Source: Polaribacter sp. SA4-12
GTDB taxonomy: Bacteria > Bacteroidota > Bacteroidia > Flavobacteriales > Flavobacteriaceae
Direction of reading: 5' to 3'
DNA length: 64,000 nucleotides
Assembly: GCF_002163675.1 (NCBI RefSeq)
Contig: NZ_CP019334.1
Span: 3,701,501-3,765,500 of the forward strand
The notes beneath the pieces were generated by a model. It was not told the origin of the DNA. It made no database searches and worked only from the letters and a program-made list of their open reading frames with translations. Shown here one piece after another: positions 10,316-57,654 of this stretch (position 1 is the stretch's first letter; each line of letters begins with the position of its first letter). A program made the position numbers and the translations under genes.

Positions 10316-10322
10316 AATTTTA

Positions 10323-23522: not shown

Positions 23523-24791
23523 ATGTTTAAAAATAAGGTTTTAGTATTACTATTTATTTCGTTCATTTTTAGCCTCACTTCTTGTAAAAAGGAGGAAGAA
23601 AAAAAGCAATCTGTGTTTCCTCAATTCTTACCAAAGGAGAAACCAAATATGAAATTAAGTAAGGCTGTAAATAGATTGTATGACAACTATACAGCTGTAA
23701 AACCTCAAGAAAACGAATTATTTTCTCAATTTAAGTATACAGAAATAAAAGGTTTTGATTATAACAATCATGATGGAACCATAACACGTAGAGATCCTTC
23801 AAAAATAATATTTAATGCAGGAAAATATTACGTTTGGTATACCTATAGAAACACATCAACACCTCCTCAAGGAGCAGAAAAAAGTAACGATACAATTCCT
23901 TCAGCAGATTGGGATTTATCAGAAATTTGGTATGCAACAAGTAAAAATGGTTTTACTTGGGAAGAACAAGGAGTAGCTATAAAAAGACCAGAAAAGCCTT
24001 TTGTTGGTTGGCGTTCTGTTTCTACTGCAGATATTTTGGTTTGGAAAGGTAAGTATTACCTTTATTATCAGGGTTTTAAACAAGCAAGTGGTAAACGTGG
24101 AGATGATTGCCCAGTTGCAGTTTCATTTGCAGATTCTCCAAATGGACCTTGGACTCCTTACAACAAAGAAGTAATACCCAATGGAGAGAAAGGTTCTTGG
24201 GATCAATTCTCAATTCACGACCCTTATCCTTTAGTCTATAAAGGAAAAATCTATTTGTATTATAAATCAGATTTTGGAAAAACAACAGATTGGATAAGAA
24301 TGCAAGGTCTTGCGACTGCAAATAATCCTTTAGGACCATTTACAAAACATCCTCTAAATCCTGTTATGTCATCAGGTCACGAAACCACATTATTTCCTTT
24401 TAAACAAGGGATTGCTGCTTTGGCTTATAAGGATGGAAATGAACATAATACAATTCAGTTTTCAGAAGATGGTGTCAATTTTGAAATTGCTTCCATCACA
24501 GAATTAATGCCAATTGCTGGCGCACCTTATATAGCTGATGCTTTTACCGATACTAAAGATGGAAGAGGAATAACTTGGGGATTATCTCATTTTATTGGAA
24601 TGGGAGGAAGAGGAAAATGGCATTCTAAATTAGTTCGTTTCGATTGTGATTTGAGTTTAGATATTAATGATTCTCAAATGAAAAAATCTACAGTATATCA
24701 TAGTCCAGAAGTGTATATGAAACAAGGATTAAATAAAACTCAATTAAAAAGGATTGAAGAAGAAAACAAAAAACTAAATCTCGATAAATAA
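23523..24791 (+). CDS. GH117-like glycosidase (lipoprotein)
   Basis: This 422-residue lipoprotein (cysteine in SLTSCKKE) shows the typical GH117 sequence course: RRDPSKIIFNAGKYYVWYT, SADWDLSEIWYATSKNGFTW, STADILVWKGKYYLYYQG, SIHDPYPLVYKGKIYLYYK, SSGHETTLFPFKQGIAAL and NTIQFSEDGVNFEI. Characterized GH117 enzymes are alpha-1,3-(3,6-anhydro)-L-galactosidases that release anhydro-L-galactose from agar oligosaccharides. His286 and Glu287 of GHET fall in the conserved GHE motif of the active site. The N-terminal extension of about 70 residues could be a dimerization helix as in characterized members. The call to the family or a sister subfamily is fairly strong; whether it acts on anhydro-L-galactose or another alpha-galactose derivative is open. 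Confidence 0.85.
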   Translation: MFKNKVLVLLFISFIFSLTSCKKEEEKKQSVFPQFLPKEKPNMKLSKAVNRLYDNYTAVKPQENELFSQFKYTEIKGFDYNNHDGTITRRDPSKIIFNAGKYYVWYTYRNTSTPPQGAEKSNDTIPSADWDLSEIWYATSKNGFTWEEQGVAIKRPEKPFVGWRSVSTADILVWKGKYYLYYQGFKQASGKRGDDCPVAVSFADSPNGPWTPYNKEVIPNGEKGSWDQFSIHDPYPLVYKGKIYLYYKSDFGKTTDWIRMQGLATANNPLGPFTKHPLNPVMSSGHETTLFPFKQGIAALAYKDGNEHNTIQFSEDGVNFEIASITELMPIAGAPYIADAFTDTKDGRGITWGLSHFIGMGGRGKWHSKLVRFDCDLSLDINDSQMKKSTVYHSPEVYMKQGLNKTQLKRIEEENKKLNLDK

Positions 24792-42502: not shown

Positions 42503-44497
42503 TTAATCTTCAGGATAATAAACTTTGATTAATTCAGTAAGGTTTGTTTTATATCCTGCTTTAGAAAAATCTTGAAGTTCTATTCCTTGAGATTTTAATA
42601 GCGCATCATTTGATAAATTTAATTTACCAGATTCAATTCCTATTAGCTTAATTTCTGAAAACAAAGTACCATTAAATGGCGTTAATTGATCTTCTGATAC
42701 TTTATCATATTGTGCTAATTGTCTTAATTTAATGTCTCCAGAATTACTATTGAAGATGTTGTTTTTCCAAGAAGTAATTCCAATTGCAGATGAATAACCT
42801 TTCATTACTTTGCCTTGTTTACCTTTAATATATTTTGGTGAACTTTCTGTGGGACCTTTAAAAATAATAGAATCAGCAACTAAAATATTCTTTTCAAAAG
42901 TTAATTCAGATGAATTTGCATACGCTATAGATTGCGGGCCTTTATCAAGAAAAACATTGTTTTTATAGCTACAATTTCTTGTCATATGTGCTTGAATTGG
43001 TACTTTTGCATTGTAAGATAAATTATTTTCAACTACACAATTTTCACAACCTTCATCTAAATAGTAAGCATATGTTTTTATACCAGAATTCAATTTAGAC
43101 AAAACAACATTATTTTTTACTTTCGTGTTTTTATGTCCAAACATATAAATAGCTCCACCATCTTGCATAAAAGTTTTTATATTATGAATAACATTTCCTT
43201 CAACTAAAGAATTATTTCCGATTCCATTTATTCCACAATAAGGCATATTATAAATCTCATTCTGACTTATTGTATTTTTGTTTCCTTGGCCAAAAATACC
43301 AACAGCACTTTTGTAAATTAATCCAATATCGTGTAATCTGTTTTGTTTGATTTCTATATTTTTTCCTCTATAAAAAATGGCTCCTGCACCACAATTCTCT
43401 ATTTCAGAATTAGTAATTTTTATATTATTTCCTAATAATTTTAAAGCCCAACCACCAATATTTTTAATATTTAAGTTGATAAGAGAAACGTCATCGATGT
43501 TTTTTCCACTAATAGCTCCTTCAAAACGCATTGCACCATAACCACCAGTAATTAATTTAGTTGTTGTAGAAGTTAGCGTTAGATTTTCGATAGAAATATT
43601 AGAGGTTCCTTTTTCTAAAGTTATAATATTTTGATATTTTGGAACTATGATTTGCAAAGAAGAAATATTTTCATTTTCTGTTGGCCAATAATACAATCGT
43701 TCATTTGTTCTGTCTAAAAACCATTGTCCTGGTTTTGTCATTCCTTCCAAAGTGTTCCAAACAACATACGTTTGTGCATTTTTGTTTCTCTTTGCAAAAG
43801 CTCCTGGAGGATGTTGGCTTTCGTTATCAAATTTTAAAGTATTATTTTCTATATTATGACTTTTTAAACCAACTAAAGTTTCATCCCATTCATGGTAAAT
43901 TGTTAATTCTGCATTGTTAACATCGATGTTTTTAATGTCTTCAGGAATATATTTTAAAGTAGTTTTTTCTTCATCTGTAGGTTTTCTTTCCCAACCACCA
44001 GCTTCTGAAGATAACCATCTAACATCAAAATTATTTAAATGTGTGAAAGCTCCTTTTTCTGGTGATCTTGCACGCTCTTTATATTTTCCGTTTACTTGAA
44101 TCATTCTAAAATCCCAATTTCTATTTCTAGTATTTGGTACATCAGCATATATAAACTTTCCTTCTTTTTTTAAATTTTCTAACTTAATTCCTCCAAAAAG
44201 CATAGGTGAACTTCCTTCTTCACCTTTAATCGTTAGGTTTTTATCCTCTTTTGTTAGCTTAAGATTTACATCAAAATATTTACCCTTTTTAACGATAATC
44301 ACTTTTTTACCATTAGTTTCTCTAGTTTTATTAATAGCAAAATCTAATGTTTTAAGAGGTGAAGATGAAGATCCTGCATTTTTATCATCTCCGTTTTCAC
44401 TTACATAGATTTTTAAGCTTTCTGAAGGTTTTGGTGAACATCCAATATGAAAAAAAGATGATATAAATAGTAAGTATACGATGCTTTTAAATTTCAT
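42503..44497 (-). CDS. Right-handed beta-helix lipoprotein, GH141/GH110-like
   Basis: This 664-residue lipoprotein (cysteine in FFHIGCSPK) is a parallel beta-helix enzyme candidate. It opens with IYVSENGDDKNAGSSSSPLKTLDFAINKTRE, the start typical of several beta-helix glycosidases. An inserted beta-domain follows (RMIQVNGKYKERARSP, ELTIYHEWDETLVG). From about 290 to 560 there are regular coil repeats with Asn ladders (NNIKITNSEIENCGAGAIFYRGKNIEIKQN). This layout recalls GH141 (fucosidase/xylanase) and GH110 (alpha-1,3-galactosidase). Both would suit a locus with GH29 and GH16, but I cannot choose. It is co-directional with the lactonase gene 9 bases upstream. Confidence 0.75.
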   Translation of the reverse strand: MKFKSIVYLLFISSFFHIGCSPKPSESLKIYVSENGDDKNAGSSSSPLKTLDFAINKTRETNGKKVIIVKKGKYFDVNLKLTKEDKNLTIKGEEGSSPMLFGGIKLENLKKEGKFIYADVPNTRNRNWDFRMIQVNGKYKERARSPEKGAFTHLNNFDVRWLSSEAGGWERKPTDEEKTTLKYIPEDIKNIDVNNAELTIYHEWDETLVGLKSHNIENNTLKFDNESQHPPGAFAKRNKNAQTYVVWNTLEGMTKPGQWFLDRTNERLYYWPTENENISSLQIIVPKYQNIITLEKGTSNISIENLTLTSTTTKLITGGYGAMRFEGAISGKNIDDVSLINLNIKNIGGWALKLLGNNIKITNSEIENCGAGAIFYRGKNIEIKQNRLHDIGLIYKSAVGIFGQGNKNTISQNEIYNMPYCGINGIGNNSLVEGNVIHNIKTFMQDGGAIYMFGHKNTKVKNNVVLSKLNSGIKTYAYYLDEGCENCVVENNLSYNAKVPIQAHMTRNCSYKNNVFLDKGPQSIAYANSSELTFEKNILVADSIIFKGPTESSPKYIKGKQGKVMKGYSSAIGITSWKNNIFNSNSGDIKLRQLAQYDKVSEDQLTPFNGTLFSEIKLIGIESGKLNLSNDALLKSQGIELQDFSKAGYKTNLTELIKVYYPED

Positions 44498-44506
44498 AAT
44501 TATGTA

Positions 44507-45550
44507 TTATAAGAAGATGGCACAAACGCCAGATTTTATTTCTTTTGTTCTTTGTTTTTCTGATAGTTTTCCATCAGAATTAATTCTGTAAACTATTGTT
44601 TCATCAGAATCTTGTAAGCAAGCAATTAACCAATTTCCATCTTTAGAAATATTGAATTCTCTTAACGTTTTTCCTTCCGTAAATTGATGGTCTACTAACT
44701 CTAATGAATCAGCTATAATTTTAAAAATTGTAATAGCATCTATTGTTCTGTTTCCGGCATATAAAAATTTGTTATTCGGATGGATTCTTATCGCAGAAGC
44801 ACTTGGGTTTTTAGTAAAATATTTAGGTAAAGAGTTTACGTTTTCAATTGGTTTAAAAACACTATTTTCATTTTTTAAGATTGATATTTCACCTGTTAAT
44901 TCGCTAATTAGATAGCCTAAATCACCATCTTTATTAAAGACTATATGTCTTGGTCCAAAACCTAAATTAGTATCAATATCAAGTTCTTTTATAGGTTTAA
45001 AGTTTTCATCTTTTAAAGCATATGTTTTTACCTTATCAATGCCTAAATCTGGTATAAAAATTAGTTTTTTGTTAGGGTGGATTGCAACTTGATGAGCGTG
45101 AGGAGCTTCTTGTCTTTCCTCATTTATACTTGATCCTTTATGTTTGAAATTATGAGTTTCTTCAACCAATTTTCCTTGTGAATCTGTAGTATATCTCAAT
45201 ACATTTCCTGTTCCGTAACAAGAAATAAAAACAGTATTATTTATAGATTCAATATGGCAAGGTAGACTTCCAGAAACAGGATGTTCATTAATGAACTCTA
45301 AACTATAATCATCTTTTATTTTGAAAGCTTTTACCTTCGGTTTTTTCTCTTGAATAACTTCTGTAAAAGTGTATAGAAATTGTTTGTCATCAGAAATTGC
45401 CAAATAACCAGGGTTTAAAGTTTTACAAGAATGTAATAATTTTAAATCACCAGTTTTATCATTTAATTCTAGTGTAGAAATACCTATTCCTTTTCCACCA
45501 AAACCTGGTGCAATCATTTCGGTATAACTTCCAATAAAAACAATTGCCAT
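44507..45550 (-). CDS. Beta-propeller lactonase family protein (PF10282-like)
   Basis: This 347-residue protein has no signal peptide, so it is cytoplasmic. It belongs to the seven-bladed propeller family that includes 6-phosphogluconolactonase of the YbhE type: IGSYTEMIAPGFGGKGIGISTLEL, HAHQVAIHPNKKLIFIPDLGIDKV, GPRHIVFNKDGDLGYLISELTGEI and SASAIRIHPNNKFLYAGNR-type blade ends. It probably hydrolyses a sugar lactone. Next to an operon that encodes a mutarotase, sugar dehydrogenases and an acid-sugar dehydratase, it is the best local candidate for the step from aldonolactone to aldonate. In known L-fucose pathways that step is usually done by an amidohydrolase instead. It precedes the beta-helix gene by 9 bases and has its own -7 box. 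Confidence 0.85.
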   Translation of the reverse strand: MAIVFIGSYTEMIAPGFGGKGIGISTLELNDKTGDLKLLHSCKTLNPGYLAISDDKQFLYTFTEVIQEKKPKVKAFKIKDDYSLEFINEHPVSGSLPCHIESINNTVFISCYGTGNVLRYTTDSQGKLVEETHNFKHKGSSINEERQEAPHAHQVAIHPNKKLIFIPDLGIDKVKTYALKDENFKPIKELDIDTNLGFGPRHIVFNKDGDLGYLISELTGEISILKNENSVFKPIENVNSLPKYFTKNPSASAIRIHPNNKFLYAGNRTIDAITIFKIIADSLELVDHQFTEGKTLREFNISKDGNWLIACLQDSDETIVYRINSDGKLSEKQRTKEIKSGVCAIFL

Positions 45551-45578
45551 AATCTTTGAATATTTATGATTCGTATTC

Positions 45579-45586
45579 CAAATTTA
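45579..45586 (-). promoter_or_regulatory. Predicted -7 box of the lactonase gene
   Basis: On the minus strand 45586-45579 is TAAATTTG, an exact TAnnTTTG match, 29 bases before the start codon at 45550. No convincing -33 TTTG is present at standard spacing, so an activator such as the adjacent AraC protein may be needed. Confidence 0.45.
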
Positions 45587-45621
45587 TAAATTATTTACCA
45601 CTTTTGGTTGTTTAAATAAGT

Positions 45622-46473
45622 TTAAATTCGCTGATATAACTGCCTATATGCATTAGGAGTCATTTGCTTATACTTGTTAAATTGCCTATGAAAAAAGGAT
45701 AAGTTATTAAACCCAGATTCGTAACCTATTTCTGAAACCGATAAATCTGTTTCTATGAGCATTTTACTAGCTATTGTAATTTTATATTCGCTTACGTAAT
45801 TTGAATATGTTTTATCAAAAGTTTTTTTAAAAAACCTGCAAAAAGCTTCTTTACTTAAAGATACTTTATTAGCTAATTCTGTTAAAGAAAGTTCGTTTTG
45901 ATAATTGTCTTTAATGTAATTATTAATCACATTTACTCTATTACTTTCTTTTAAAGAGAGGTCTTTTCCAAAACTAGGTCCAGCTAATAAATTAATAGAT
46001 GATTTAGTCGCTAAAACGTTCAAGATATTTAACAAATTTAAAAATCGTTCAAAAGGATTTTGGTTATAAATAGTACTAAAAGAACTTTCTAAAGAAAATG
46101 CAGTTTCTCTATCAAAAGAAAGACCATAACTCGATTTTAAAAGCATTTTTTTGATGCTAGTAAATTCAGGTTTATCAAGTAAATGTAAGAGTAAATCTTC
46201 ATCCCATTGAATTATTACACATTTTACTTGTTCGTTTTTTGAATCAATAGTTTTCCAAGAATGTGGTACATTTTTACCAACTAAAACTAAATCACCTCTT
46301 TCAAATGGTTTCATAGAATCACCAACATATCTAATTCCAGTACTTTGTATCATAAATGTTAGTTCGTACTGTGGATGAAAATGCCACTCAGCTTTAAATT
46401 CTTTTTCCTCAAATATTTTAACTTTAAAAGAATTATTAGGGGATGTAGTGACTTGCTTTAATTGTGCTTTCAT
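45622..46473 (-). CDS. AraC-family transcriptional regulator with cupin sensor
   Basis: This 283-residue regulator has an N-terminal cupin-type ligand-binding half (FKAEWHFHPQYELTFMI and FERGDLVLVGKNVPHSW, with histidines at about 32, 34 and 81). The C-terminal AraC double helix-turn-helix is at about 180-283 (LSLTELANKVSLSKEAFCRFFKK, then LSVSEIGYESGFNNLSFFHRQF and KQMTPNAYRQ). It is divergent from the enolase-SDR-dehydrogenase-permease operon, with 153 bases between start codons. It most likely activates that operon, and perhaps the lactonase downstream, in response to the imported sugar. Confidence 0.94.
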   Translation of the reverse strand: MKAQLKQVTTSPNNSFKVKIFEEKEFKAEWHFHPQYELTFMIQSTGIRYVGDSMKPFERGDLVLVGKNVPHSWKTIDSKNEQVKCVIIQWDEDLLLHLLDKPEFTSIKKMLLKSSYGLSFDRETAFSLESSFSTIYNQNPFERFLNLLNILNVLATKSSINLLAGPSFGKDLSLKESNRVNVINNYIKDNYQNELSLTELANKVSLSKEAFCRFFKKTFDKTYSNYVSEYKITIASKMLIETDLSVSEIGYESGFNNLSFFHRQFNKYKQMTPNAYRQLYQRI

Positions 46474-46626
46474 AACATAAAAGTACTAAAAAATGCAAAA
46501 TATTGATGTAAATAACTATTATTATCCTTAAAAAGTCAATATGGTATACAAGAAGTGTAGAATTATATATAGTTTCGAAATTCATTTACAAGATATTTGT
46601 ACTATCTATAACTAATCAATACAAAA
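46474..46626. promoter_or_regulatory. Divergent promoter region between AraC and the sugar-catabolic operon
   Basis: These 153 bases must contain the promoters in both directions and the presumed AraC site. No exact TAnnTTTG box was found for the plus-strand operon. The sequence GATATTTGTACTATC around 46588-46602 is the nearest approach. That fits an activator-dependent promoter. Confidence 0.4.
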
Positions 46627-47709
46627 ATGAAGGATTTAGAAATAAGAGATTTAAAAATATATAAAGCATCTACACCATTAAAAAAACCTATTTCAGATGC
46701 TACGCATACACTAACTGAAATTTCTTTTCTTGTGATAAGAATTCAACTTGAAAATGGAATAATAGGTGAATCCTATTTACTTTCATTTCAATATTCTCCT
46801 AACGCAATTATTGGAGCATTAAAAGATTTAATTCCAGTTGTAAAAGGATATAAAGCTTATGAAACAGGTTTGTTGAGTAAGAAATTAGATGATTTATTTG
46901 AATACTTTGGAAATCAAGGTTTATTAAGATGGGCACAAGCTGCAATTAATATTGCAATGTGGGATGCTTGGGGTAAAGCTCAAAATCAACCAGTTTATAA
47001 ATTATTAGGAGCCACCAAAGAGAAAGTAAATATTTACGGAAGTGGTGGTTGGATTTCTTACAGTATAGACGAACTTATTGAAGAAGTTACAGATTATGCA
47101 GCAAGAGGGTTTAAGGCTGTGAAAATTAAAGTTGGTTCACCAAAAGTAAGTACAGATTTAGAGCGTTTAAGAAAAGTTAGAGAAGCTGTAGGTAATGATA
47201 TAGATATTATGATGGATGCCAATCAAGGTATGGATTTACCATCAGCAATTAAATTAGCAAACGGAGCTAAAGACTTAAATATAAATTGGTTTGAAGAACC
47301 AGTAAATCATCAAGATTTTCAGGCTTATCAAGTTTTAAAAAATCAAACAGGGATTTCTTTAGCTATGGGAGAAAGAGAATTCGATACTTTACCACTTCGT
47401 GAGTTGGTTACAAGAAATGCATTAGATATTTGGCAACCAGATATTTTAAGAATTGGTGGTGTTGAGGCTTGGAGAGAAAGTGCCGCTTTAGCACACAGTT
47501 TTCATTTACCTGTTTTACCACATTATTATAAAGATTATGATGTACCATTATTATGTACAATTCCAAATGGAGTAGGTGCAGAATCTTTTGATTGGGTAGA
47601 TCCTTTAATAGACAATCCAATGGTAATAGAAAATGGTTTTGCAAAACCTCATGATTTACCAGGTTGGGGATTCACATTTTTAGATGATCATTTAACTGAA
47701 ATAAAATAA
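46627..47709 (+). CDS. Enolase-superfamily acid-sugar dehydratase (mandelate racemase group)
   Basis: This 360-residue cytoplasmic enzyme belongs to the mandelate racemase/muconate lactonizing branch of the enolase superfamily. The KxK general-base motif is in KAVKIKVGSP. Magnesium ligands are in IMMDANQG, WFEEPV and LAMGERE. A His/Asp dyad is likely in LPHYYKDYD and WQPDILRIGG. Such enzymes dehydrate aldonates to 2-keto-3-deoxy acids. In this context L-fuconate or L-galactonate is the best candidate, but classical L-fuconate dehydratases are longer (about 430 residues), so this would be a different subgroup. It is the first gene of the operon and is followed immediately by an SDR. Confidence 0.87.
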   Translation: MKDLEIRDLKIYKASTPLKKPISDATHTLTEISFLVIRIQLENGIIGESYLLSFQYSPNAIIGALKDLIPVVKGYKAYETGLLSKKLDDLFEYFGNQGLLRWAQAAINIAMWDAWGKAQNQPVYKLLGATKEKVNIYGSGGWISYSIDELIEEVTDYAARGFKAVKIKVGSPKVSTDLERLRKVREAVGNDIDIMMDANQGMDLPSAIKLANGAKDLNINWFEEPVNHQDFQAYQVLKNQTGISLAMGEREFDTLPLRELVTRNALDIWQPDILRIGGVEAWRESAALAHSFHLPVLPHYYKDYDVPLLCTIPNGVGAESFDWVDPLIDNPMVIENGFAKPHDLPGWGFTFLDDHLTEIK

Positions 47710-47710
47710 G

Positions 47711-48472
47711 ATGAGTTTACAAGTTTTTTCATTAGAAAATAAAATTGCTCTTGTTACTGGAGGAGGAACAGGAATTGGATTTGGTATTGCAAAAGCATAT
47801 ATAGAAGCTGGAGCAACAGTAGTAATAACGGGTCGTAGAGAACAAGTTTTAAAAGAAGCAGTTGCTGAATTAGGGAAAAATGCACATTATCGTGTAAATG
47901 ATATTACTGATAAAAAGGACATTCCAAATTTAGTGAGCGATATAGAAACAAATATAGGTCCTATAGAATTATTGGTAAACAATGCAGGAATCCATTATAA
48001 AGGAATGGCGCAAGATACTTCTGATGAAGATTTTGAAAGAATTTTGCAGACCAATGTAATGAGTGTATTCTCTTTAACACGTGAATGCGCAAAGTATATG
48101 CTTCAAAGAAAAAAAGGATCTATTTTAATGATTGGTTCTATGGCAGGTTTATTTGGTATTGATAAAGTAGTCGCTTATGGAGTTTCAAAAACGGCATTAA
48201 CAGGTCTTGTAAACGCATTGGTAACAGAATATTCAACTAGTAATGTGCGCGTAAATGCAATTGCACCAGGTTGGATAGAATCTAATATGTTTTTAAATGC
48301 AATTAATAATGATCCCAATAGAAAAAAGCAAATAACGAACAGAATTGCTATGGATCATTTTGGACAAACAAGCGATATTGGTAATGCAGCCGTTTTTTTA
48401 AGTTCGGAAGCAGCAAGATATATTACAGGAACGATTCTACCAGTTGATGGTGGAGCAACCGTAAATTTTTAA
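47711..48472 (+). CDS. Short-chain dehydrogenase/reductase
   Basis: This 253-residue SDR has the NAD(P)-binding motif TGGGTGIGFG at residues 16-25, NNAGIH after the fourth strand, and the catalytic Ser-Tyr-Lys in IGSMAGLFGI and YGVSK. The C-terminal APGWIESNMF and ILPVDGGATVNF are typical of classical SDRs. The arginine in TGRR after strand two suggests NADP or dual cofactor use. By position (2 bases after the dehydratase) it may oxidize a 2-keto-3-deoxy aldonate, as the SDR of the L-fucose pathway does. Alternatively it could be the first sugar dehydrogenase. The family is certain; the step is inferred. Confidence 0.92.
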   Translation: MSLQVFSLENKIALVTGGGTGIGFGIAKAYIEAGATVVITGRREQVLKEAVAELGKNAHYRVNDITDKKDIPNLVSDIETNIGPIELLVNNAGIHYKGMAQDTSDEDFERILQTNVMSVFSLTRECAKYMLQRKKGSILMIGSMAGLFGIDKVVAYGVSKTALTGLVNALVTEYSTSNVRVNAIAPGWIESNMFLNAINNDPNRKKQITNRIAMDHFGQTSDIGNAAVFLSSEAARYITGTILPVDGGATVNF

Positions 48473-48482
48473 AAGATAATTT

Positions 48483-49502
48483 ATGAAAGTAATTAGACTT
48501 AACGAACCTGGAAAATGGGAATCATTTCAAGATTTAGAATTTGATAAAACGCTTTTAGAAGGCGAAGCATTAGTTAAGGTGAAAAAAATAGGTGTTTGTG
48601 GTACAGATTTACATGCTTTCAAAGGCAGTCAACCCTTTTTTAGTTATCCTAGAATTTTAGGTCACGAATTAGCTGTAGAAGTAGTTGCAGTAGCAAGTGA
48701 TGTAGAAAACATAAAGCTTGGAGATCATTGTTCTGTTGAACCCTATTATAACGAAAGTGTAAACCAAGCTGTACGAAATGGAAAACCAAATTGTGGCGAT
48801 AGTTTAAGAGTTTTAGGTGTACACGTAGATGGTGGTATGCAAGAATATTTTAAATATCCAGCAAAATTTTTGCACGCATCAGATACATTATCTGAAGATC
48901 AATTAGCAATGATAGAACCTTTAGCAATAGGTTGTCACGCAGTAGATAGAGCTCAAATATCGCACAAAGATGTTGTTTTGGTTATTGGAGCTGGTCCTAT
49001 TGGATTGGGAACTATTCAGTTTGCTCAATTAACAGGAGCAAGAGTTATTGCTATGGATATTGACGATAAAAAACTAGAAAAGTGTAAGGAAATTACAAAT
49101 ATCAGCGATACAATTAATGCACTAGGTGATGTAGAAAAATCATTAACTGAATTATTAAATGGTGATTTACCAACAATCGTATTGGATGCAACAGGAAACT
49201 CAACATCTATGATGAATACATTTAAATATGTTGCTGCAGGTGGAACAATTGTATTTATTGGTCTTTTTATGGGTGATGTCGTTTTTAACGACCCTTATTT
49301 TCATAAAAAAGAATTAACTCTAAAAGCGAGTAGAGCAGCTTTAAGTTCAGATTTTAGTCGAATTATTAGATTGATAGAAGCTGGGAAAATTGATCCAACT
49401 CCATTTATCACACATAGAATTAAATTTGATGATGTTCCTACAGAATTTGAAAAACTATACACATATCAAGGCGATTTAATTAAAGCTGTAATTGAATTGT
49501 AA
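48483..49502 (+). CDS. Zinc-type sugar/alcohol dehydrogenase with a degenerate structural-zinc loop
   Basis: This 339-residue medium-chain dehydrogenase resembles L-idonate/L-galactonate 5-dehydrogenases. The catalytic zinc ligands are Cys in IGVCGTDLHAFKG and His-Glu in LGHELAVEV, and the nucleotide fold is VVLVIGAGPIGLGTIQFA. The lobe that normally has four zinc cysteines reads VEPYYNESVNQAVRNGKPNC, so only the last Cys remains and the structural zinc must be absent. The adjacent VLGVHVDGGMQEYF is intact, and the gene is not otherwise damaged. It probably oxidizes L-fucose, L-galactose or a derived aldonate in the cytoplasm. It lies 10 bases after the SDR. Confidence 0.9.
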   Translation: MKVIRLNEPGKWESFQDLEFDKTLLEGEALVKVKKIGVCGTDLHAFKGSQPFFSYPRILGHELAVEVVAVASDVENIKLGDHCSVEPYYNESVNQAVRNGKPNCGDSLRVLGVHVDGGMQEYFKYPAKFLHASDTLSEDQLAMIEPLAIGCHAVDRAQISHKDVVLVIGAGPIGLGTIQFAQLTGARVIAMDIDDKKLEKCKEITNISDTINALGDVEKSLTELLNGDLPTIVLDATGNSTSMMNTFKYVAAGGTIVFIGLFMGDVVFNDPYFHKKELTLKASRAALSSDFSRIIRLIEAGKIDPTPFITHRIKFDDVPTEFEKLYTYQGDLIKAVIEL

Positions 49503-49537
49503 TCATATAAATAACCAACTTTAAGTAAAACCAAAAT

Positions 49538-50824
49538 ATGTCAAAATTAAAAAGTATTACATCTTCAAAATATCTTGTTCCATTAATCATCATTATGCTA
49601 TTGATGTTCTTCTGGAATTTGAGTAGAAATATTAATGATGTATTAATTCCACATTTAAAAAGAGCGTGTGAATTAACAGATTTTGAATCTTCTTTGGTTC
49701 AATCTGCTTTTTTTGGAGCCTATTTTATTGTAGCGCTTCCTGCAGGTTGGTATATTCAGAAAAAAGGATATAGAACAGGAATTATCACTGGATTAATCGT
49801 AGCGGCAATAGGTGCATTTTTATTTTTTCCAGCAGCAGAAACTAGAATTTATACTTTCTTTTTGGCAGCATTATTTATTATGGCAGCAGGTTTTGCTATT
49901 TTAGAAGTAACAGCTGCACCATATATTACAAAATTAGGTGATCCTGAAGGAGCTTCAAGTAGATTGAGTTTATCAGCTGCAATTGGTTCCGTTGGTGCAA
50001 CTATTGCGCCTTTTTTGGCAGCAAAACTTTTGTTGCATGAAGAAGATATCAAACAAACAACGATAGATGCTTTTTCAAATACAGAGTTACAAACTTTTTT
50101 ATCAGGTGAAGCAGATTTAGTAAAAGCTCCCTATTTAATTTTAGGAGGTATTCTTGCTGTAATAGCAATTATAGTGCTTTTTGTAAACTTACCAGAAATA
50201 AAAGATGGTGATGAAGGTTCTACAGAGAAAAAACCATTAAAGGATATTTTAAAATTCAAGCACACGCTTTATGGAGTTGGTGCAGAATTCTTTTATGTTG
50301 GTGCAGAAGTGGGTATAGTAAGTTTCATTATTCGTTATGCAAAATGGTTGAATATACCTGATTTAACAGAACAGAATTCAGCAATATTTATTACCATTTT
50401 TATGGCATTAGTATTGGTTGGTCGTTTAGCAGGAGTTTATATTTTAAATATATTTAAACCAGCAAGAGTTTTAGCTTTTTGTAGTGTTGGAGCCTTTATT
50501 ATGGTTTCAATTGCAATGACAACAAACGGTTATTTCTCATTAGGTTGTTTAGCTTCTGTAGGTTTATTTACTTCTATAGTTTACCCAATTATTTTTAGTT
50601 TAAGTATGAAAGATTTAGGCGGATATACTAAAACAGGTTCATCTGTGTTTTTGTTAGGTATTGTTGGTGGAGCCATTGTTCCGCCATTAATGGGATATAT
50701 TTCTGATGTTTCTAACATTCGTTATTCGTTCATTATTCCACTAGTTTGTTATGTGTATTTATTGTTTTTTGCAATTAAAGGTCATAAAGTGAACATTAAA
50801 GAAATGGCTAAAGTTTCAAATTAG
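49538..50824 (+). CDS. FucP-type sugar:proton symporter (MFS)
   Basis: This 428-residue major facilitator protein has 12 predicted membrane helices. The opening LMFFWNLSRNINDVLIPHLKRACELTDFESSLVQSAFFGAYFI is the hallmark of the L-fucose permease FucP subfamily, which also includes transporters of glucose, galactose and N-acetylglucosamine. FYVGAEVGIVSFIIRY opens the second half. With a RhaM-like mutarotase directly downstream and GH29 after that, L-fucose or L-galactose is the likely cargo. It is the second inner-membrane sugar importer in the window besides the SSS symporter at 18025. Confidence 0.9.
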   Translation: MSKLKSITSSKYLVPLIIIMLLMFFWNLSRNINDVLIPHLKRACELTDFESSLVQSAFFGAYFIVALPAGWYIQKKGYRTGIITGLIVAAIGAFLFFPAAETRIYTFFLAALFIMAAGFAILEVTAAPYITKLGDPEGASSRLSLSAAIGSVGATIAPFLAAKLLLHEEDIKQTTIDAFSNTELQTFLSGEADLVKAPYLILGGILAVIAIIVLFVNLPEIKDGDEGSTEKKPLKDILKFKHTLYGVGAEFFYVGAEVGIVSFIIRYAKWLNIPDLTEQNSAIFITIFMALVLVGRLAGVYILNIFKPARVLAFCSVGAFIMVSIAMTTNGYFSLGCLASVGLFTSIVYPIIFSLSMKDLGGYTKTGSSVFLLGIVGGAIVPPLMGYISDVSNIRYSFIIPLVCYVYLLFFAIKGHKVNIKEMAKVSN

Positions 50825-50829
50825 ATTTT

Positions 50830-51486
50830 ATGGAATACTCTAAAAATCAATTTAGACGTTTTACTTTTTTCTTAGAAATAGACTCCAAAGAAACGATATC
50901 AAATTTTTTAAAAGGAGATGTAGCAAAGTTACAGACTGATGGTATTTTGAGTTTAGAAGGATATCAAAAAGAAAATCAATACTTTTTTCTTGTGGATGTA
51001 CTTCCGGAAATGAAGTTTATTGATGTAAAAAAAGTATTTACAAAAGCTCAATTTCAACCTGATTCTTTAGAACGTATTTATAAATTTGAACAGACCCAAA
51101 TTTATCCAGCTAAAGAAGGACAATTAAAATCAAAATTAGTTGAATTTAAAAGGTTTGTTTGGACGTTACTTTTAGAGGAAGCTCCAGAATTAATGGCAGA
51201 ATACAGAAAAGCACATAGCATTGGACAAGCGTGGCCAGAGATTACAAATAATATGAAAAAGGTAGGTGTAAAGGATATGGAAATATATTTACACGGTAAT
51301 CAAGCCATTTTGATTATGGATACTAAACCAGATTTCGATTTGGAAAAAGTAGGTCCAGAATGGCAAAAACTTCCGCGAGAAAATGAATGGCAAGAATATG
51401 TTGCTAAATTTCAGCGTACAAGTCCAGAAAGTTCTATCCAAGAAAAATGGTTGGATATGAATAAAATAAACTTTTTACAATCATAG
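50830..51486 (+). CDS. Two-domain RhaM-like sugar mutarotase
   Basis: This 218-residue protein has a C-terminal domain (about 100-215) of the L-rhamnose mutarotase type: FKRFVWTLLLEEAPELMAEYRKAHSIGQAWPEI, MEIYLHGNQAILIMD, then WQEYVAKFQRTSPES. Proteins of this family interconvert anomers of L-rhamnose or L-fucose. The first 100 residues (FRRFTFFLEIDSKETISNFL, YFFLVDVLPEM) look like a second, degenerate alpha/beta domain of similar size. Ordinary RhaM proteins have only about 105 residues. Lying 5 bases after the FucP-like permease gene, it would supply the right anomer to the dehydrogenase. A decayed partial copy lies at 53041-53280. Confidence 0.85.
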   Translation: MEYSKNQFRRFTFFLEIDSKETISNFLKGDVAKLQTDGILSLEGYQKENQYFFLVDVLPEMKFIDVKKVFTKAQFQPDSLERIYKFEQTQIYPAKEGQLKSKLVEFKRFVWTLLLEEAPELMAEYRKAHSIGQAWPEITNNMKKVGVKDMEIYLHGNQAILIMDTKPDFDLEKVGPEWQKLPRENEWQEYVAKFQRTSPESSIQEKWLDMNKINFLQS

Positions 51487-51516
51487 AAAGTTACCAATAA
51501 TATAAAATTGATACTT

Positions 51517-53034
51517 ATGAAAATCACATTCCATAAATTAGCAATTCTTTTACTTTTCACTTCACTTTTAGCTTGTAAAGAGACAAAGCCAGAGAAAGTA
51601 GAAATCAAAGCTGTAACCTATGAAGAAAATTGGGAAAGCCTTGAGCAATACAAAATACCACAATGGATGAAGGATGTTAAATTCGGGATTTTTATTCATT
51701 GGGGGCCAAATTCAGTTGCAGAATTACATACAGATTGGTATCCAAGATGGATGTATTTAGATGATGGAATTATAAACCCACAAACAGGAGAAGTTATCAA
51801 TAAAAAACCACATCCTGCATTTGCATATCATAAAGAAAAATTCGGTGATCAAAAAGATTTTGGATACAAAGACTTGATTCCGAAATTTAAAATGGAGAAA
51901 TTCAATCCAGAAGAATGGGTGAGTTTATTTAAAGAAGCAGGAGCACAATATGTCGTTCCAGTTGCAGAACATCACGATGGTTTTGCTTTGTATGAATCGA
52001 GTATTACAAAATGGAATGCTGTTAATATGGGACCAAAAAGAGATGTTTTTAAAGATTTAACTGATGAAATTAAAAAACAAGGTTTAATTAGTGGAGCAAG
52101 TTCTCATTTAGCTTTTAACTATAATTTTTTCAATCAGAAAGAATACTTTGATACTGGAAACCCTAAATATGCTGATTTGTATGCACCTCCTCATCAAATG
52201 GGAGATTCTGTAAATGCAGATTGGTTGGCAAAAACTTGGTGGCCTAGAACTAAAGAAATCATAGATAAGTATCAACCAGATATTTTATGGTTCGATTTTT
52301 ATTTAGACAGACCAGAGTTTGCTCCTTATCATAAAAAACTAGCTGCTTATTACTATAATTCTGGTAAAAAGAGAGGTAAAGAAGTTGTGCTTCAAACTAA
52401 AAACTACAAGTACGAATCTTATCCTGCAGGAACGCATATGTTAGATTTAGAACGTAGTAAATTAGATTCTATTAGAACAGAATATTGGCAAACTGATACT
52501 TCAATAGGAAAAAATTCTTGGTATTATGCAGAAAATTGGATTCCAAAACAACCTGGAGAGTTAATTGCAGATTTAGTTGATATTGTAAGTAAAAATGGCT
52601 GTTTACTACTAAATATTGGTCCAAAATACGATGGTACAATTCCTGAAGATCAACAAAAAACATTACTAGAAATAGGAAAATGGTTAAAGGTTAATGGAGA
52701 AGCTATTTATGGTTCAAAATATTGGAAAACATTTGGAGAAGGACCTACAAAAACAAATCTGGGACACCTTTCTGAAGATAAAAATGAAAAATTCACAGCA
52801 GAAGATATTAGGTTCACTCAAAAGGACGGAAATATTTATGCGATTGCATTAGTACCCCCAACTAATGCAAACATTATCATCAATTATTTAAACACTTCAA
52901 ATATTTCTATAAAGTCAATTGAATTATTGGGTTATAAAGGAGAAATAAAGTTTAAACAAACTGATAATAAATTGATAATTGAAAAGCCAAAAGATGCTTC
53001 ATTAAACTATTCTTGGGTTTTTAAAATCAATTAA
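51517..53034 (+). CDS. GH29 alpha-L-fucosidase-type glycosidase (copy 3, lipoprotein)
   Basis: This is a GH29 enzyme of 505 residues. The frame is open three codons further upstream from a TTG, but the ATG at 51517 begins a proper lipoprotein signal (MKITFHKLAILLLFTSLLACKE) and is chosen. Conserved regions: WMKDVKFGIFIHWGPNS, VVPVAEHHDGFALYESS, and ILWFDFY with nucleophile Asp260, then a C-terminal beta-sandwich. Its place inside the sugar-catabolic operon links it to release of the same monosaccharide that the permease and mutarotase handle. The signal peptide and leader are duplicated at the start of the next gene (53281). Confidence 0.93.
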   Translation: MKITFHKLAILLLFTSLLACKETKPEKVEIKAVTYEENWESLEQYKIPQWMKDVKFGIFIHWGPNSVAELHTDWYPRWMYLDDGIINPQTGEVINKKPHPAFAYHKEKFGDQKDFGYKDLIPKFKMEKFNPEEWVSLFKEAGAQYVVPVAEHHDGFALYESSITKWNAVNMGPKRDVFKDLTDEIKKQGLISGASSHLAFNYNFFNQKEYFDTGNPKYADLYAPPHQMGDSVNADWLAKTWWPRTKEIIDKYQPDILWFDFYLDRPEFAPYHKKLAAYYYNSGKKRGKEVVLQTKNYKYESYPAGTHMLDLERSKLDSIRTEYWQTDTSIGKNSWYYAENWIPKQPGELIADLVDIVSKNGCLLLNIGPKYDGTIPEDQQKTLLEIGKWLKVNGEAIYGSKYWKTFGEGPTKTNLGHLSEDKNEKFTAEDIRFTQKDGNIYAIALVPPTNANIIINYLNTSNISIKSIELLGYKGEIKFKQTDNKLIIEKPKDASLNYSWVFKIN

Positions 53035-53040
53035 AAAGTT

Positions 53041-53280
53041 AACTTCAACCTGAATACTTAGAACGTAGTTATGAGTATTATTAGACTGAAGTTTACTCTA
53101 CATAAACAGTAGAATTAAAAATAAAACTGAGTAAATTTAAAAGGTTTATTAGGATGTTTCTTTAGAAGAAGTTACTCAATTAATCACTAAATTTCAATAT
53201 ACAAGTTTAGGAAATTTTATATAAGAAAATGGTTAGATATGAATAAATTGAACTTTTTCCAATTATAGAAATTGATACTT
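53041..53280 (+). pseudogene. Decayed duplicate of the mutarotase 3' end and GH29 leader
   Basis: This gap aligns by eye with 51055-51516. CAACCTGAATACTTAGAACG matches CAACCTGATTCTTTAGAACG in the mutarotase. AATTTAAAAGGTTT, the GGTTAGATATGAATAAA run and TAGAAATTGATACTT follow in the same order. Stop codons and an internal deletion of roughly 200 bases break the frame. It is therefore a degraded copy of the mutarotase C-terminus plus the leader of the GH29 gene, left by a tandem duplication. The homology runs on into the start of the next gene. Confidence 0.85.
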
Positions 53281-56149
53281 ATGAAAACTACATTCCATAA
53301 ATTAGTAACTCTTTTAATTTTAGCTTTTCTATATTTTCCAATGTATTCTCAAACTTCAAAATCATTTAATAGTGGTAGAGAACTCAATATTGGGATTTCA
53401 CAAGAATGGTCAGTTTGGCTAGATAAAGACGCTAAATGGGAAAATGACACGCTGTATTTACCAGATGAAGTAGATGTTGAAACCATTGGAATCAATCCTC
53501 CTACTTGTGGTTGGGAAAGTGTTTATAATAAAGGAATTACTGCACAACTACCAGTTGTTGTTGAAGAACTTTTTAGTAACGGAAACCCTGAATGGAGTTA
53601 TCAAGGTGTAAGCTGGTTTACAACACATATTAATATCCCTAAAAACTGGAAAAAGAAAATTGTTCGCCTTTTTGTTGGTAAGCAAAATACACGAATTGAA
53701 ATTTATGTAAATGAAAAATTAGCAGGATATGATATCATTGCTAATACACCTTACAGTTCAGATATAACACAATTTTTAATATCTGGTAAAGAAAATAGAA
53801 TAGCTTTTCGTATTACAAATCCTGGAGGACAAAGAGGATGGAATGATTTTCCATTAATAAAATGGGGTAAATACAAATTTCCACCTCAACACGATTTTGG
53901 TGGTATTGGAGGTGATGTAAAATTATTAGTTTCTGATAAAGTTTTTATTGAAGATGTTTTTGTGAAGAACGAATTGCCAGCAAAAGCAAATAACATAGAA
54001 ATATCTACCGAATTAAATAACAGAACAGATAAAAGCATCAATTCTAAAATAAAAATTGATATTCAATCTAAACTTGATGGAAAAACTGTTTTTACGGCAA
54101 ACTATCCAATCACTATAAATAAAGAAGGTAAAACTGTTTTTACAAAAAAAATACAAGTACCAAATGCAGAACTGTGGAGTGTTGATACTCCTAAACTATA
54201 CAATTGTATAGTTTCAATAGAAGCTGACAATTATAGTGATGCAATGAAGCAGCCGTTTGGTTTTAGAGTTTTTGAAGTAAAGGCAAACAATAATAATGAA
54301 GAGAATTATTATTTAAATGGAGAACGATTCAGACATTCATCAGCTATAGATTGGGGTTATTATGCGCACCATGGTTATTACCCTACGGATGCTATGGCAA
54401 AAAAGAGTGTCGAAAATGCAAAAGCAATTGGGCATAACGGAATAAACTGTCATCGAAATATGGGAGATCCTTTATTGTTTAAAAATGCAGATGAACTTGG
54501 CTTGGTAATTTTAGAAGAACCAGGTGGTTTTGATGAATCTATTAAGTTGTATAATGAAATTGGAGGTTTATGTGTCAAAACTTTTGAAGGAGAGATTATG
54601 TGGTATAGGTCTCTTAGAATGGCAAAACGTGAACGAAATCATCCTTCAGTAGTAGGATTTATTCTTGCCAACGAGCGTGATATTTTTGATTTATTAAGAA
54701 AAAACATCATGTTAGACATGCATGATATTGATAATTCTAAACTTATTGTAAATCAATCGGGTGCTGTTCCTGGTGGACCATCTGGTCAAGTTCCTCACCT
54801 TCGTCCTTATGATAAAAAATTCAGGTTAGATTATATGGATGATCACAGCGTGGGTTCAGATTCTCGTTTTTTAGAAGTAGAATTAGAATCACATTTAAGT
54901 GCTAATGATAGAGGAAAAGACGGTGTTTTTGGTAGAATAGATCCTACAAAGCACGATAATATTATTTATTGGGGTGAAGTACGTTGTTATACAGGTCCAG
55001 ATAATTGGGTGGAATTAAAAGAACAGTCCAAAAGTCTTCCAGAAAACAGAAAAGGGTATAATGTTTCAACAAGTTCAGTTTTAGCTTCAAAAATAGAAAC
55101 CTATTTTCAACAAAACAATTTATCAGAAACAGGTAGTAAAAATATACTATCTCCTTCGTATGTTAGTATACAAGCCGGTAGAGGTCTTATGTATATCAAT
55201 GGTCGTTTAGATCAAACGATTATGAGTAATAATGCTGAAGATGGATTTGCGATGAACGGATGGAGTGGCGGAGCCAGCAAACTACCGAAAGAACACGGGA
55301 AAGTACAAATTTAATTTAAACATAAAAGATGGAAGCGGACAATTCAGAAAATCAGTATTAAATACGATTATTCAAATAAAAGGTGGAGATACTTATGCCC
55401 AAACGATAATCGAATCACTATCGGTTCCTGTTGATAAAAAATGGAAGGCTGGTTATTTAACGATTGAAGGAACCGTTTTAAAAAATGGAAATACAATAGC
55501 ATTTGGAACTGAACAAGTTTTGCTCAAAAACAGAGCTAGTCTTAATAAAGATCTTGCTGGTTTACGCATTGAAGTCTTAAAATGGTCTGCAGCTGAAAAA
55601 GCTTTAAAGGATGCGGGAATAGCAACGAAATCGGAAGGTATTCAATCATCAGAAAATAATTCAGTAGTAATTGCTGGAGATATTCCTGATAATAAAAACA
55701 TGAAAAGATTGCTAGAAAAAACATCTAAAGGAGCAACCTTATTTATTAAGTTTGATGAAAAATGGGCTAAAAAATTATACGAATTAAAAATCTTAAAAAC
55801 GTCAGTAAGTGAATGGGGAGGAAATCAAGTAGCGTATTGGCATGGAAACGGATGGGGTTATATAGATCATTTTGTAGGCGATCAAGCCATACCTTCAAAA
55901 AGTACAATTGGTACAAATAGTTGGGAAGTTCCGGGTAACCCAAAAGGGTTTTATCCTTTCGAAGCTAATTATCCACAGAAAGCTTATGGTGCTTGGTTTG
56001 CAAGACCAGATAAGCTTTTAGTATTGATCGGAGAAATTAGTTATGGTGAAGGGAAAATTATTCTCCATCCTTCATACCATATTGACGAAGAAAATGCTTT
56101 TAACGATTTACTTTTCTTTAATATTATAAAAGAGGGGCATAGGAAATAG
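53281..56149 (+). pseudogene. GH2-type glycosidase, frameshifted and probably internally deleted
   Basis: The first frame (53281-55314) encodes a signal peptide, GH2 sugar-binding and immunoglobulin-like domains (WSYQGVSWFTTHINIPKNW) and a barrel with acid/base Glu465 in ILANERDIF and nucleophile Glu566 in YWGEVRCY. It stops shortly after GFAMNGWSGG. From about 55285 the +1 frame continues to 56149 with KYKFNLNIKDGSGQFRKS, a normal continuation of such enzymes. Relatives usually have several dozen residues between these two points, so I infer a deletion plus frameshift near 55260-55300. The signal peptide (MKTTFHKLVTLLILAF) is a copy of that of the upstream GH29. It may be a recent pseudogene, or two separate polypeptides may be made. 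Confidence 0.8.
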
Positions 56150-56277: not shown

Positions 56278-57654
56278 ATGAAGAAACTAATTTTAATATT
56301 ATTCATCAGTTTACCATTATTTCTATTTGCAAAAGAATTTAATGTTTGCGATTATGGAGCGGTGGGAGATGGAGAAACATTGAATACAATAGCAATTCAA
56401 AAAGCAATTGATGCCTGTTATTCTGCAGGTGGAGGTACAGTTGTACTTGACAATGGAGGTGTTTTTATTACAGGTACTATTTATTTAAAAAGCAATGTTC
56501 ATTTTTATATTGAAGCGGGTTCAACTCTAAAAGGAAGTGGAAATATTACAGATTATACCACAGATACTCACAAGCAAATGTATAAAAATGAAAAAGCATT
56601 GGATAGGTGCTTAATATTTGCTAGTAATGCACAAAACATTACAATTTATGGAGGAGGAACAGTTGATGGTAACGTAAAAAACTTTCCTGCTAAAAACGAT
56701 CCAGAAAGAAACAGACCAATGACTTTTCGTTTTCTAAATTCTTCTAATTTAAAAATGCGCGACATCTATATTGTAAATATGCCAAGTTGGGCAACTGCTT
56801 GGCTGTATTGTAATAATATTGTTGTTGATGGAGTAACTGTTGATGCTTCAAAATCTTGGACTAGTGATTGTTTGGATTTTGATGGATGTGTTAATGTTCG
56901 TGTTTCAAATTGCAACCTAATAGCAGCAGATGATTGTTTAAGTCTTCAGGCTTCTCGTAAAGATAAACCTTGTAGAGATATTACGATTACCAATTGTAGT
57001 TTTACAAGTAAGTGGGATGCATTGCGTATTGGTTTACTTTCTCGCGGAGATATAGAAAATGTAACAGTAAGTAATTGCGTGTTTAAAGAAATTGGGCACG
57101 CTGGTATTCAGATTGAATTGTGTTAAGGAGGAAATATGGGGAATATGGTTTTTACGGGGCTTACAATGCAAAATGTAAGAGTGCCATTATATATGGCTTT
57201 CTTTCAACAACGCGCTTGTATAGATGCTCCAATGGAAGTTGAACCAATGGGGTCTATGAAAGGATTTATCTTTAGTAACATCACCTGTAAATTTGAAAAA
57301 GTAGCTGAGAAATGTGCGGCGTATAAAGAAAAAATAACTTCTAAAAATTCTCTAATTTTTATTTCAGGACTTCCTGGTCATAATATCGAAGATGTACTTT
57401 TTCAAAATGTATTTTTAGAAACCAATGGAGGTGCAATTAAAAAAGATTTTGAGAATGTTGAGGTTCCTGAATTAGATTTGAAATACTTGAATGATTGGTG
57501 GGCAGGAATCTATACTTATGACAGAGATAGTATTGTTGTACCTGCTTCAGGAATTTATGCACGTCATATTAGAGGGTTAAAATTAGACAATGTAATAACA
57601 TCTACAAGAAATCCTGATGAAAGATTACCGATTGTAATAGTTGATGGTAATTAG
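56278..57654 (+). pseudogene. GH28-like gene interrupted by one in-frame stop codon
   Basis: The protein has a signal peptide (LPLFLFAKEF) and is a close paralogue of the GH28 at 31337: YTTDTHKQMYKNEKALDRCLIFA, VRVSNCNLIAADDCLSLQAS and WDALRIGLLSRGDIENVTVSNC match it. The frame is intact over 458 codons except codon 283, which is TAA at 57124-57126. The paralogue has GAA (Glu) at that position, so a single G-to-T change explains the interruption. Immediately after the stop, AAGGAGGAAATATG by chance resembles a ribosome-binding site with a start. That could allow re-initiation of a 172-residue C-terminal piece, but the split falls inside the beta-helix. Probably a very young pseudogene or a sequencing error. 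Confidence 0.85.

Follow-up and report, generated by a model that had tools for sequence, protein, structure and literature searches.

The 64,000-nucleotide stretch of DNA analysed here (the window) spans positions 3,701,501–3,765,500 of the genome of Polaribacter sp. SA4-12, a single contig of 3.99 Mb, and carries a sugar-catabolic operon that includes an enolase-superfamily protein of the mandelate racemase group, hereafter MR. L-galactose, a rare mirror-image sugar from red seaweed, is one of the main constituents of porphyran and of related polymers of seaweeds. We lean towards the reading that the operon imports L-galactose and degrades it via D-tagaturonate, with a short-chain dehydrogenase/reductase (SDR) and MR replacing the tagaturonate reductase UxaB and the altronate dehydratase UxaA. 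This reading draws on gene content, clade membership and recurring linkage, which are observed in the sequence. A broader proposal, held more tentatively, is that MR has a new function for the enolase superfamily, as a D-altronate dehydratase found across Bacteroidota, Verrucomicrobiota, Bacillota and others, and that together with the SDR it may constitute a portable module, leading from tagaturonate to 2-keto-3-deoxy-D-gluconate (KDG), that replaces UxaB/UxaA in the catabolism of L-galactose (perhaps also of galacturonate or 5-keto-L-gluconate). If this is correct, there would be a second, largely non-homologous L-galactose route, annotation based on UxaA/UxaB would overlook some of the organisms that use L-galactose, and a function could be proposed for a widespread clade of the enolase superfamily that so far has none known.

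Two divergent units, 153 bp apart, make up the locus (Table 1). On the forward strand the gene order is MR, SDR, zinc dehydrogenase (ZnADH), FucP, RhaM and GH29, with intergenic gaps of 1, 10, 35, 5 and 21 bp; the reverse unit consists of AraC, the lactonase and GH141, with gaps of 71 bp (AraC/lactonase) and 9 bp (lactonase/GH141). All seven gene identities that the initial annotation had assigned at 44507–51486 are borne out by open reading frames and family matches, and the cluster does look like an oxidative aldose pathway, as had been suggested. The genes also flank one AraC regulator, as described there, but the lactonase runs with AraC and GH141, outside the dehydrogenase operon. The association of MR with SDR, ZnADH, permease, RhaM, GH29 and a divergent AraC recurs in other genomes, and is therefore not due to chance.

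Table 1. Features of the proposed L-galactose locus, in window coordinates.
Feature	Position	Strand	Basis
MR, proposed D-altronate dehydratase (alternative: L-galactonate dehydratase)	46627-47709	+	PF13378/PF02746
SDR, proposed D-tagaturonate 5-keto reductase	47711-48472	+	PF13561; tree position
ZnADH, proposed L-galactonate 5-dehydrogenase	48483-49502	+	identity to LgoD; LgoD clade
FucP-type sugar:H+ symporter	49538-50824	+	TIGR00885, 318.7 bits (cut-off 280.4)
Double-length RhaM-type mutarotase	50830-51486	+	PF05336 at residues 108-213
GH29, exo-alpha-L-galactosidase type	51508-53034	+	best PDB 7snk, 7ljj
AraC-family regulator, divergent	45622-46473	-	PF12833
PF10282 propeller lactonase, proposed L-galactono-lactonase (weak link)	44507-45550	-	PF10282, 286 bits; best PDB 3fgb, 135 bits
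GH141-type beta-helix protein, same direction as lactonase	42503-44497	-	PF21231
Candidate AraC site TCAATATGGTATA	46536-46548	+	divergent promoter; conserved in intergenic alignment

As we infer it, the pathway, with its substrates, the sequence of its reactions and the part played by the propeller lactonase, would be as follows. GH29 would release L-galactose, which would be taken up by FucP and equilibrated between its anomers by the RhaM protein. Oxidation at C1 to the lactone would fall to an aldo-keto reductase (AKR) in relatives and, in the window genome, probably to the SDR of a second L-galactose cluster of the same genome (cluster 2), after which a lactonase, possibly the propeller protein, would open the lactone to give L-galactonate. 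ZnADH would convert L-galactonate to D-tagaturonate, the SDR would reduce this to D-altronate in place of UxaB, and MR would dehydrate D-altronate to KDG in place of UxaA.

The nature of the sugar is indicated first by the operon's GH29, whose top PDB matches are 7snk (399 bits) and 7ljj (397 bits), with the next fucosidase at 231 bits. The PDB lists 7snk as an alpha-L-fucosidase and 7ljj as an exo-alpha-L-galactosidase; PMC12316285 describes BpGH29 (PDB 7SNK, 7LJJ) as an exo-alpha-L-galactosidase. By sequence comparison, the operon enzyme is thus closest to porphyran exo-alpha-L-galactosidases, ahead of fucosidases. The GH29s of the operon and of cluster 2 have the same best-matching alpha-L-galactosidases, and are the closest pair (50.6%) among six GH29s of the region that were compared. 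Genes around the operon include GH2, GH16, GH28, GH29, GH43 and sulfatases, a GH117-like gene (23523–24791) is 35–38% identical to GH117-type genes of 3,6-anhydro-L-galactose (AHG) clusters, and two proteins outside the window look, by eye, like GH86. The GH29, the LgoD-type ZnADH and these surroundings (GH16, sulfatases, GH117-like and, by eye, GH86) support the initial annotation's proposal that the sugar is L-galactose derived from red-algal galactan. For the AKR of relatives, the top match among solved structures is an L-galactose dehydrogenase, a weak match at 67.5 bits. GH29, the LgoD-clade ZnADH and this AKR match favour L-galactose over L-fucose.

Phylogeny is in line with the C5 steps proposed for the two dehydrogenases. 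The window ZnADH shares 40.7% identity with E. coli LgoD, whose annotation is L-galactonate oxidoreductase, and 43% with the ZnADH of cluster 2; in a tree limited by several long branches it groups with LgoD in a clade of 23 rows (support 99/93). RspB, IdnD, YdjJ, Tdh and Ahr fall outside this clade, as do ZnADHs from anhydrogalactose clusters. The SDR lies in a clade of MR-linked SDRs that is sister to E. coli IdnO and KduD-like SDRs (98/97; long branches flagged), a tree position that makes it, on sequence, sister to 5-keto-acid reductases. The E. coli lgoD and uxaB/uxaA system has the same LgoD-clade oxidation at C5 and the idnD/idnO system likewise pairs a ZnADH with an SDR to invert C5, but both differ from the window in having no MR-type dehydratase at these steps.

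MR residues K166 and K168 (KxK) and D272/H299 align with anhydrogalactonate cycloisomerase (ACI), of which entry 5xd9 carries H→N at the histidine; KxK and a D/H dyad with metal ligands are the motif of the MR group, and, from the conservation aligned here, MR fits it. By profile, its best solved relative is ACI (180.7 bits vs 168.7 for mandelate racemase); by single sequence, mandelate racemase (179 bits) is ahead of ACI (166 bits). An 84-protein tree unites the MR rows in a single clade of 75 (98/97), to which neither ACI nor two rows named FucD-like from context belong; identity to the ACIs of AHG clusters is only 30–31%. The genome's only other MR-type match is at 22% identity (E 7.8e-6).

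A scan of named records yielded 92 MR relatives, 80 of which were kept (97–53% identity), from Bacteroidota, Verrucomicrobiota, Bacillota, a Rhodoferax and others, the closest being Flavobacteriaceae. Record titles include soil, freshwater and gut taxa, and confinement of MR to red-algal degraders was rejected. Within the family, MR is present in 6/299 genomes at 1e-60; in a phylum sample, 7/395 genomes match at 1e-50, with high scores for the window genome and G556 only and ACI-like scores for the other five. Loci are denoted by L numbers: AHG-type clusters surround the matches of L040, L041 and L044, that of L042 adjoins an aldehyde-dehydrogenase-like gene and ZnADH, and that of L043 is on a short contig (all by eye). 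A plasmid search returned 387 records, all below 60% identity to MR; the 25 matches listed were at 31–35%, with no name beyond mandelate racemase/muconate lactonizing protein. No enolase-type altronate dehydratase was described in the literature covered by our search, which lay largely outside subscription journals.

The neighbours of MR were surveyed at 87 loci including the window, 85 of them with an MR row and four genomes being counted twice. SDR occurs near 49 of the 85 MR rows, AraC near 41, ZnADH near 37, AKR near 26 and RhaM2 near 22, while 21 rows have none of these genes. AKR and RhaM2 only ever accompany ZnADH; MR alone, or MR with SDR, also occurs without it. In all five of the relatives first fetched, AKR sits between SDR and ZnADH; L050, L051, L053, L069 and L096 have AraC, MR and ZnADH but no AKR. 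The full set, at L119, comprises RhaM2, SSS, MR, ZnADH, SDR, amidohydrolase and AKR, and is the only one of the 86 other MR loci to include an amidohydrolase of the lactonase type. The window genome has a single amidohydrolase of that lactonase family, which is located in cluster 2. A propeller lactonase was found by tblastn at two of the 86 other loci (L092, 32% identity; L123, 26%), and so the propeller lactonase that the initial annotation had made a pathway step is not a general feature; that of the window lacks a signal peptide on inspection of the sequence by eye. At L057–L062, L064, L105 and L089 (mostly Flavobacterium), AraC and MR stand with no other counted pathway gene adjoining. 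At L095, L097 and L099 (Niabella, Ferruginibacter), MR orthologues by eye adjoin genes for an OtnK-like four-carbon-acid kinase and a RuBisCO-like protein, a context known from D-apionate catabolism.

Cluster 2 lies at C1:3636.7–3644.3 kb, ~57–65 kb before the window start and ~100 kb from the operon. It comprises seven genes, encoding RhaM, FucP, an L-fucose dehydrogenase (FucDH)-type SDR, an amidohydrolase, a tagaturonate reductase, a UxaA-type dehydratase and a ZnADH, in addition to AraC and GH29. The SDR passes the L-fucose dehydrogenase model (352 bits, cut-off 300) and the tagaturonate reductase scores 694 bits (cut-off 359); the fuconolactonase-like amidohydrolase reaches 269 bits (cut-off 400). 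UxaB and UxaA homologues, absent from the window operon, are thus present in cluster 2. The seven genes were found in all six regions fetched from genomes with a UxaB match; moreover, KDPG aldolase and KDG kinase are located inside cluster 2 in L143 and beside it in L145, and both are present in the window genome, where the kinase is 92.5% identical to that of L145. For Luteolibacter LG18, PMC12632266 describes the lguABCDEF genes with L-galactonate, D-tagaturonate, D-altronate and KDG as predicted intermediates, and cites an L-galactose pathway in Phocaeicola (Bacteroides) vulgatus (Hobbs 2014). By gene set, cluster 2 fits conversion of L-galactose to KDG by this LG18/P. vulgatus route.

The route proposed for the operon shares its predicted intermediates with those systems, as described in the same source, and aldose and aldonate dehydrogenases occur in both; it differs in that tagaturonate reduction is assigned to LguC and altronate dehydration to LguB in LG18 (PMC12632266), whereas SDR and MR are proposed for these steps in the window. 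The same comparison holds within the genome: cluster 2 and the operon share predicted steps and homologous ZnADH, FucP, RhaM, AraC and GH29, but cluster 2 has UxaB, UxaA, the FucDH-type SDR and the amidohydrolase instead of SDR, MR, (AKR) and the propeller. Across the family sample, cluster-2 UxaB (at least 64% identity) is found in five of the six MR genomes compared with 18 of 293 others (Fisher 1e-5, uncorrected for kinship); G177, the sixth, carries a cluster 2 whose UxaB is diverged.

Split loci bear on the order of the steps and, like the nested gene contexts, support the proposed route. Seven regions from seven genomes (L153, L155–L158, L160 and L161) hold a FucDH-type SDR, amidohydrolase and ZnADH together, the latter matching the ZnADH of cluster 2 at 54–85%; neither UxaA nor UxaB is present in these regions, to which the search was confined, and MR, with or without its SDR, is located elsewhere in the genomes. 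If oxidation comes first, this front half would make D-tagaturonate and the SDR and MR would finish the pathway. Two other loci point, by gene content, to the tagaturonate/altronate/KDG node. In L112, MR and an SDR are joined by an IolO-like 5-keto-L-gluconate epimerase (196 bits against a cut-off of 300); in L115, MR has as neighbours an LgoD-clade ZnADH, a reductase of the UxaB type and a KDG-kinase-like protein (195 bits against a cut-off of 400).

Several observations weigh against this interpretation. No L-galactose 1-dehydrogenase was found among the genes of the window cluster, and AKR was not found in the window genome at 1e-30. The LgoD clade does not include the ZnADHs of L119 and L106 or one of the two or more at L107, and the SDRs of L112, L107, L119 and L039 are of another clade. 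Among the split regions, L161 contains in addition FAH and an SDR of fucose type, and its first genes may thus be part of a fucose route, making it a weaker case. L115 contains a UxaA-type protein as well, and its reductase scores 399 bits as fructuronate vs 187 as tagaturonate reductase, both under the cut-offs (603 and 359, respectively). With a conventional cluster ~100 kb upstream, the operon would be redundant, and the co-occurrence of the two clusters could mean that they serve different sugars. Finally, the nearest solved relative of MR by profile makes 2-keto-3-deoxy-L-galactonate, which favours dehydration before oxidation.

Under that alternative, which we regard as unlikely, MR is an L-galactonate dehydratase yielding 2-keto-3-deoxy-L-galactonate, which ZnADH oxidises at C5 and the SDR reduces to KDG, as in the AHG pathway. 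Besides the profile match to ACI, the AHG-type clusters L040 and L041 share the trio of MR type, ZnADH and SDR. By textbook chemistry, L-galactonate, D-altronate, L-fuconate and anhydro-L-galactonate have the same configuration at C2–C4, and MR may accept both L-galactonate and D-altronate; it may therefore be promiscuous, and sequence does not settle the order of steps. The ZnADH, however, groups with LgoD and not with the AHG-type enzymes, the split genomes hold ZnADH with the first two steps and away from MR, and MR or MR with SDR is found without ZnADH, all of which argue for oxidation first.

The operon might instead act on another L-hexose or on a modified L-galactose (e.g. an O-methyl form), leaving plain L-galactose to cluster 2. 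The presence of cluster 2 in all six MR-operon genomes of the family sample is in keeping with such a division, but the GH29s of the two clusters, sharing their best matches and forming the closest pair, speak against it, and we consider it quite improbable.

The initial annotation had mapped the genes onto the steps of the non-phosphorylative L-fucose route, and FucP, RhaM, the GH29 family and the membership of fuconate dehydratases in the same superfamily are compatible with that pathway, or with MR as an L-fuconate dehydratase. This mapping is mostly unsupported. The operon genes include no FAH hydrolase or 2-keto-3-deoxy-L-fuconate (KDF) aldolase, the aldolase family PF00701 not having been searched genome-wide; the three FAH genes of the genome are all elsewhere, two of them matching fucose-cluster FAH at 37% and 29%, and the L-fucose route has no step for an LgoD-type ZnADH. 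Eighteen MR genomes were inspected via 20 regions hand-picked from 49 genomes searched, and nine have FAH-type clusters containing FAH, a presumed KDF dehydrogenase SDR (the name being assigned from context), a FucDH-type SDR and mostly an amidohydrolase. Nine SDRs of these clusters, their function taken from context, form a separate clade to which the window SDR, at 29–33% identity, does not belong, just as MR stands apart from the FucD-like rows. In five of the nine (L159, L164, L166, L168 and L172) the cluster has its own UxaA- or FucD-type dehydratase, so that MR there is additional to the fucose route. In the remaining four (L161, L163, L165 and L167) the ~20 kb read revealed no dehydratase resembling UxaA, FucD or MR, and MR might therefore serve L-fuconate in those genomes, a further point against its assignment to altronate. 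On balance, the L-fucose reading is quite improbable for the window operon.

That MR is the cycloisomerase of an AHG pathway is very hard to sustain: ACI is its closest solved relative by profile, the window holds a GH117-like gene and no other close MR-type protein is encoded in the genome, but MR falls in a separate clade from the ACIs of AHG clusters, no aldehyde dehydrogenase match was found in the 3.6–3.8 Mb region, and a mutarotase makes little sense for 3,6-anhydro-L-galactose. The AHG pathway (ACI, ZnADH and KduD-like SDR) does employ the same three protein families as the proposed L-galactose route and has the same end product, KDG, but differs in the clades of MR and ZnADH and in its entry by aldehyde dehydrogenase.

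The divergent promoter carries a candidate regulatory site. The sequence TCAAWATRGTRYA is found in the AraC–MR gap of many loci, with its sole exact copy in the window at 46536–46548; a scan allowing one mismatch gave five places vs 3.4 expected, which leaves the exact site alone to be counted. Of 172 loci, 28 contain the core pattern. In 21 it lies at the divergent AraC promoter (at L017 on the margin of a longer MR reading, and at L065 preceding a different gene); a further five hits fall in short copies of loci of this kind, and L144 and L161 have it elsewhere. L065 also resembles the window in having a GH141 near its MR operon.

The RhaM protein, at 218 aa, is a tandem whose N-terminal half is a degenerate RhaM-like copy. 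Alignment of the N- and C-terminal halves with hhalign gave a probability of 87 and E 3.8e-6, compared with 0.1–0.4 for the six listed of 20 column shuffles, and the predicted fold has two similar halves (pLDDT 87.3). Several RhaM relatives have, by eye, a lipoprotein-like leader, which suggests a periplasmic mutarotase.

Other genes of the red-algal region were also noted. At L008:7334–12004 (C1:3669334–3674004), a URO-D-family gene and a B12-binding protein are joined, by eye, by three more genes, of which one is again URO-D-like and one CobW-like; this corrinoid demethylase-like set might strip O-methyl groups from algal sugars. From L008:13039 to L009:3320 extends an odd sugar-acid cluster with a RhaT permease, CoA-transferase family III, MaoC, and AHG-type ZnADH and SDR. 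Inspection by eye adds another CoA-transferase, a Gfo/Idh gene, a regulator of the IclR type and two solute-binding-like proteins; similar genes were seen by eye at L161. Assignment of 9218–11429 as GH117 was rejected, both genes there being 22–24% identical to GH117-type genes. Further along the window, a GH2-type gene is split over two overlapping frames (53272–55314 and 55265–56149), and a GH28-type gene (56278–57126 and 57136–57654) is apparently shortened.

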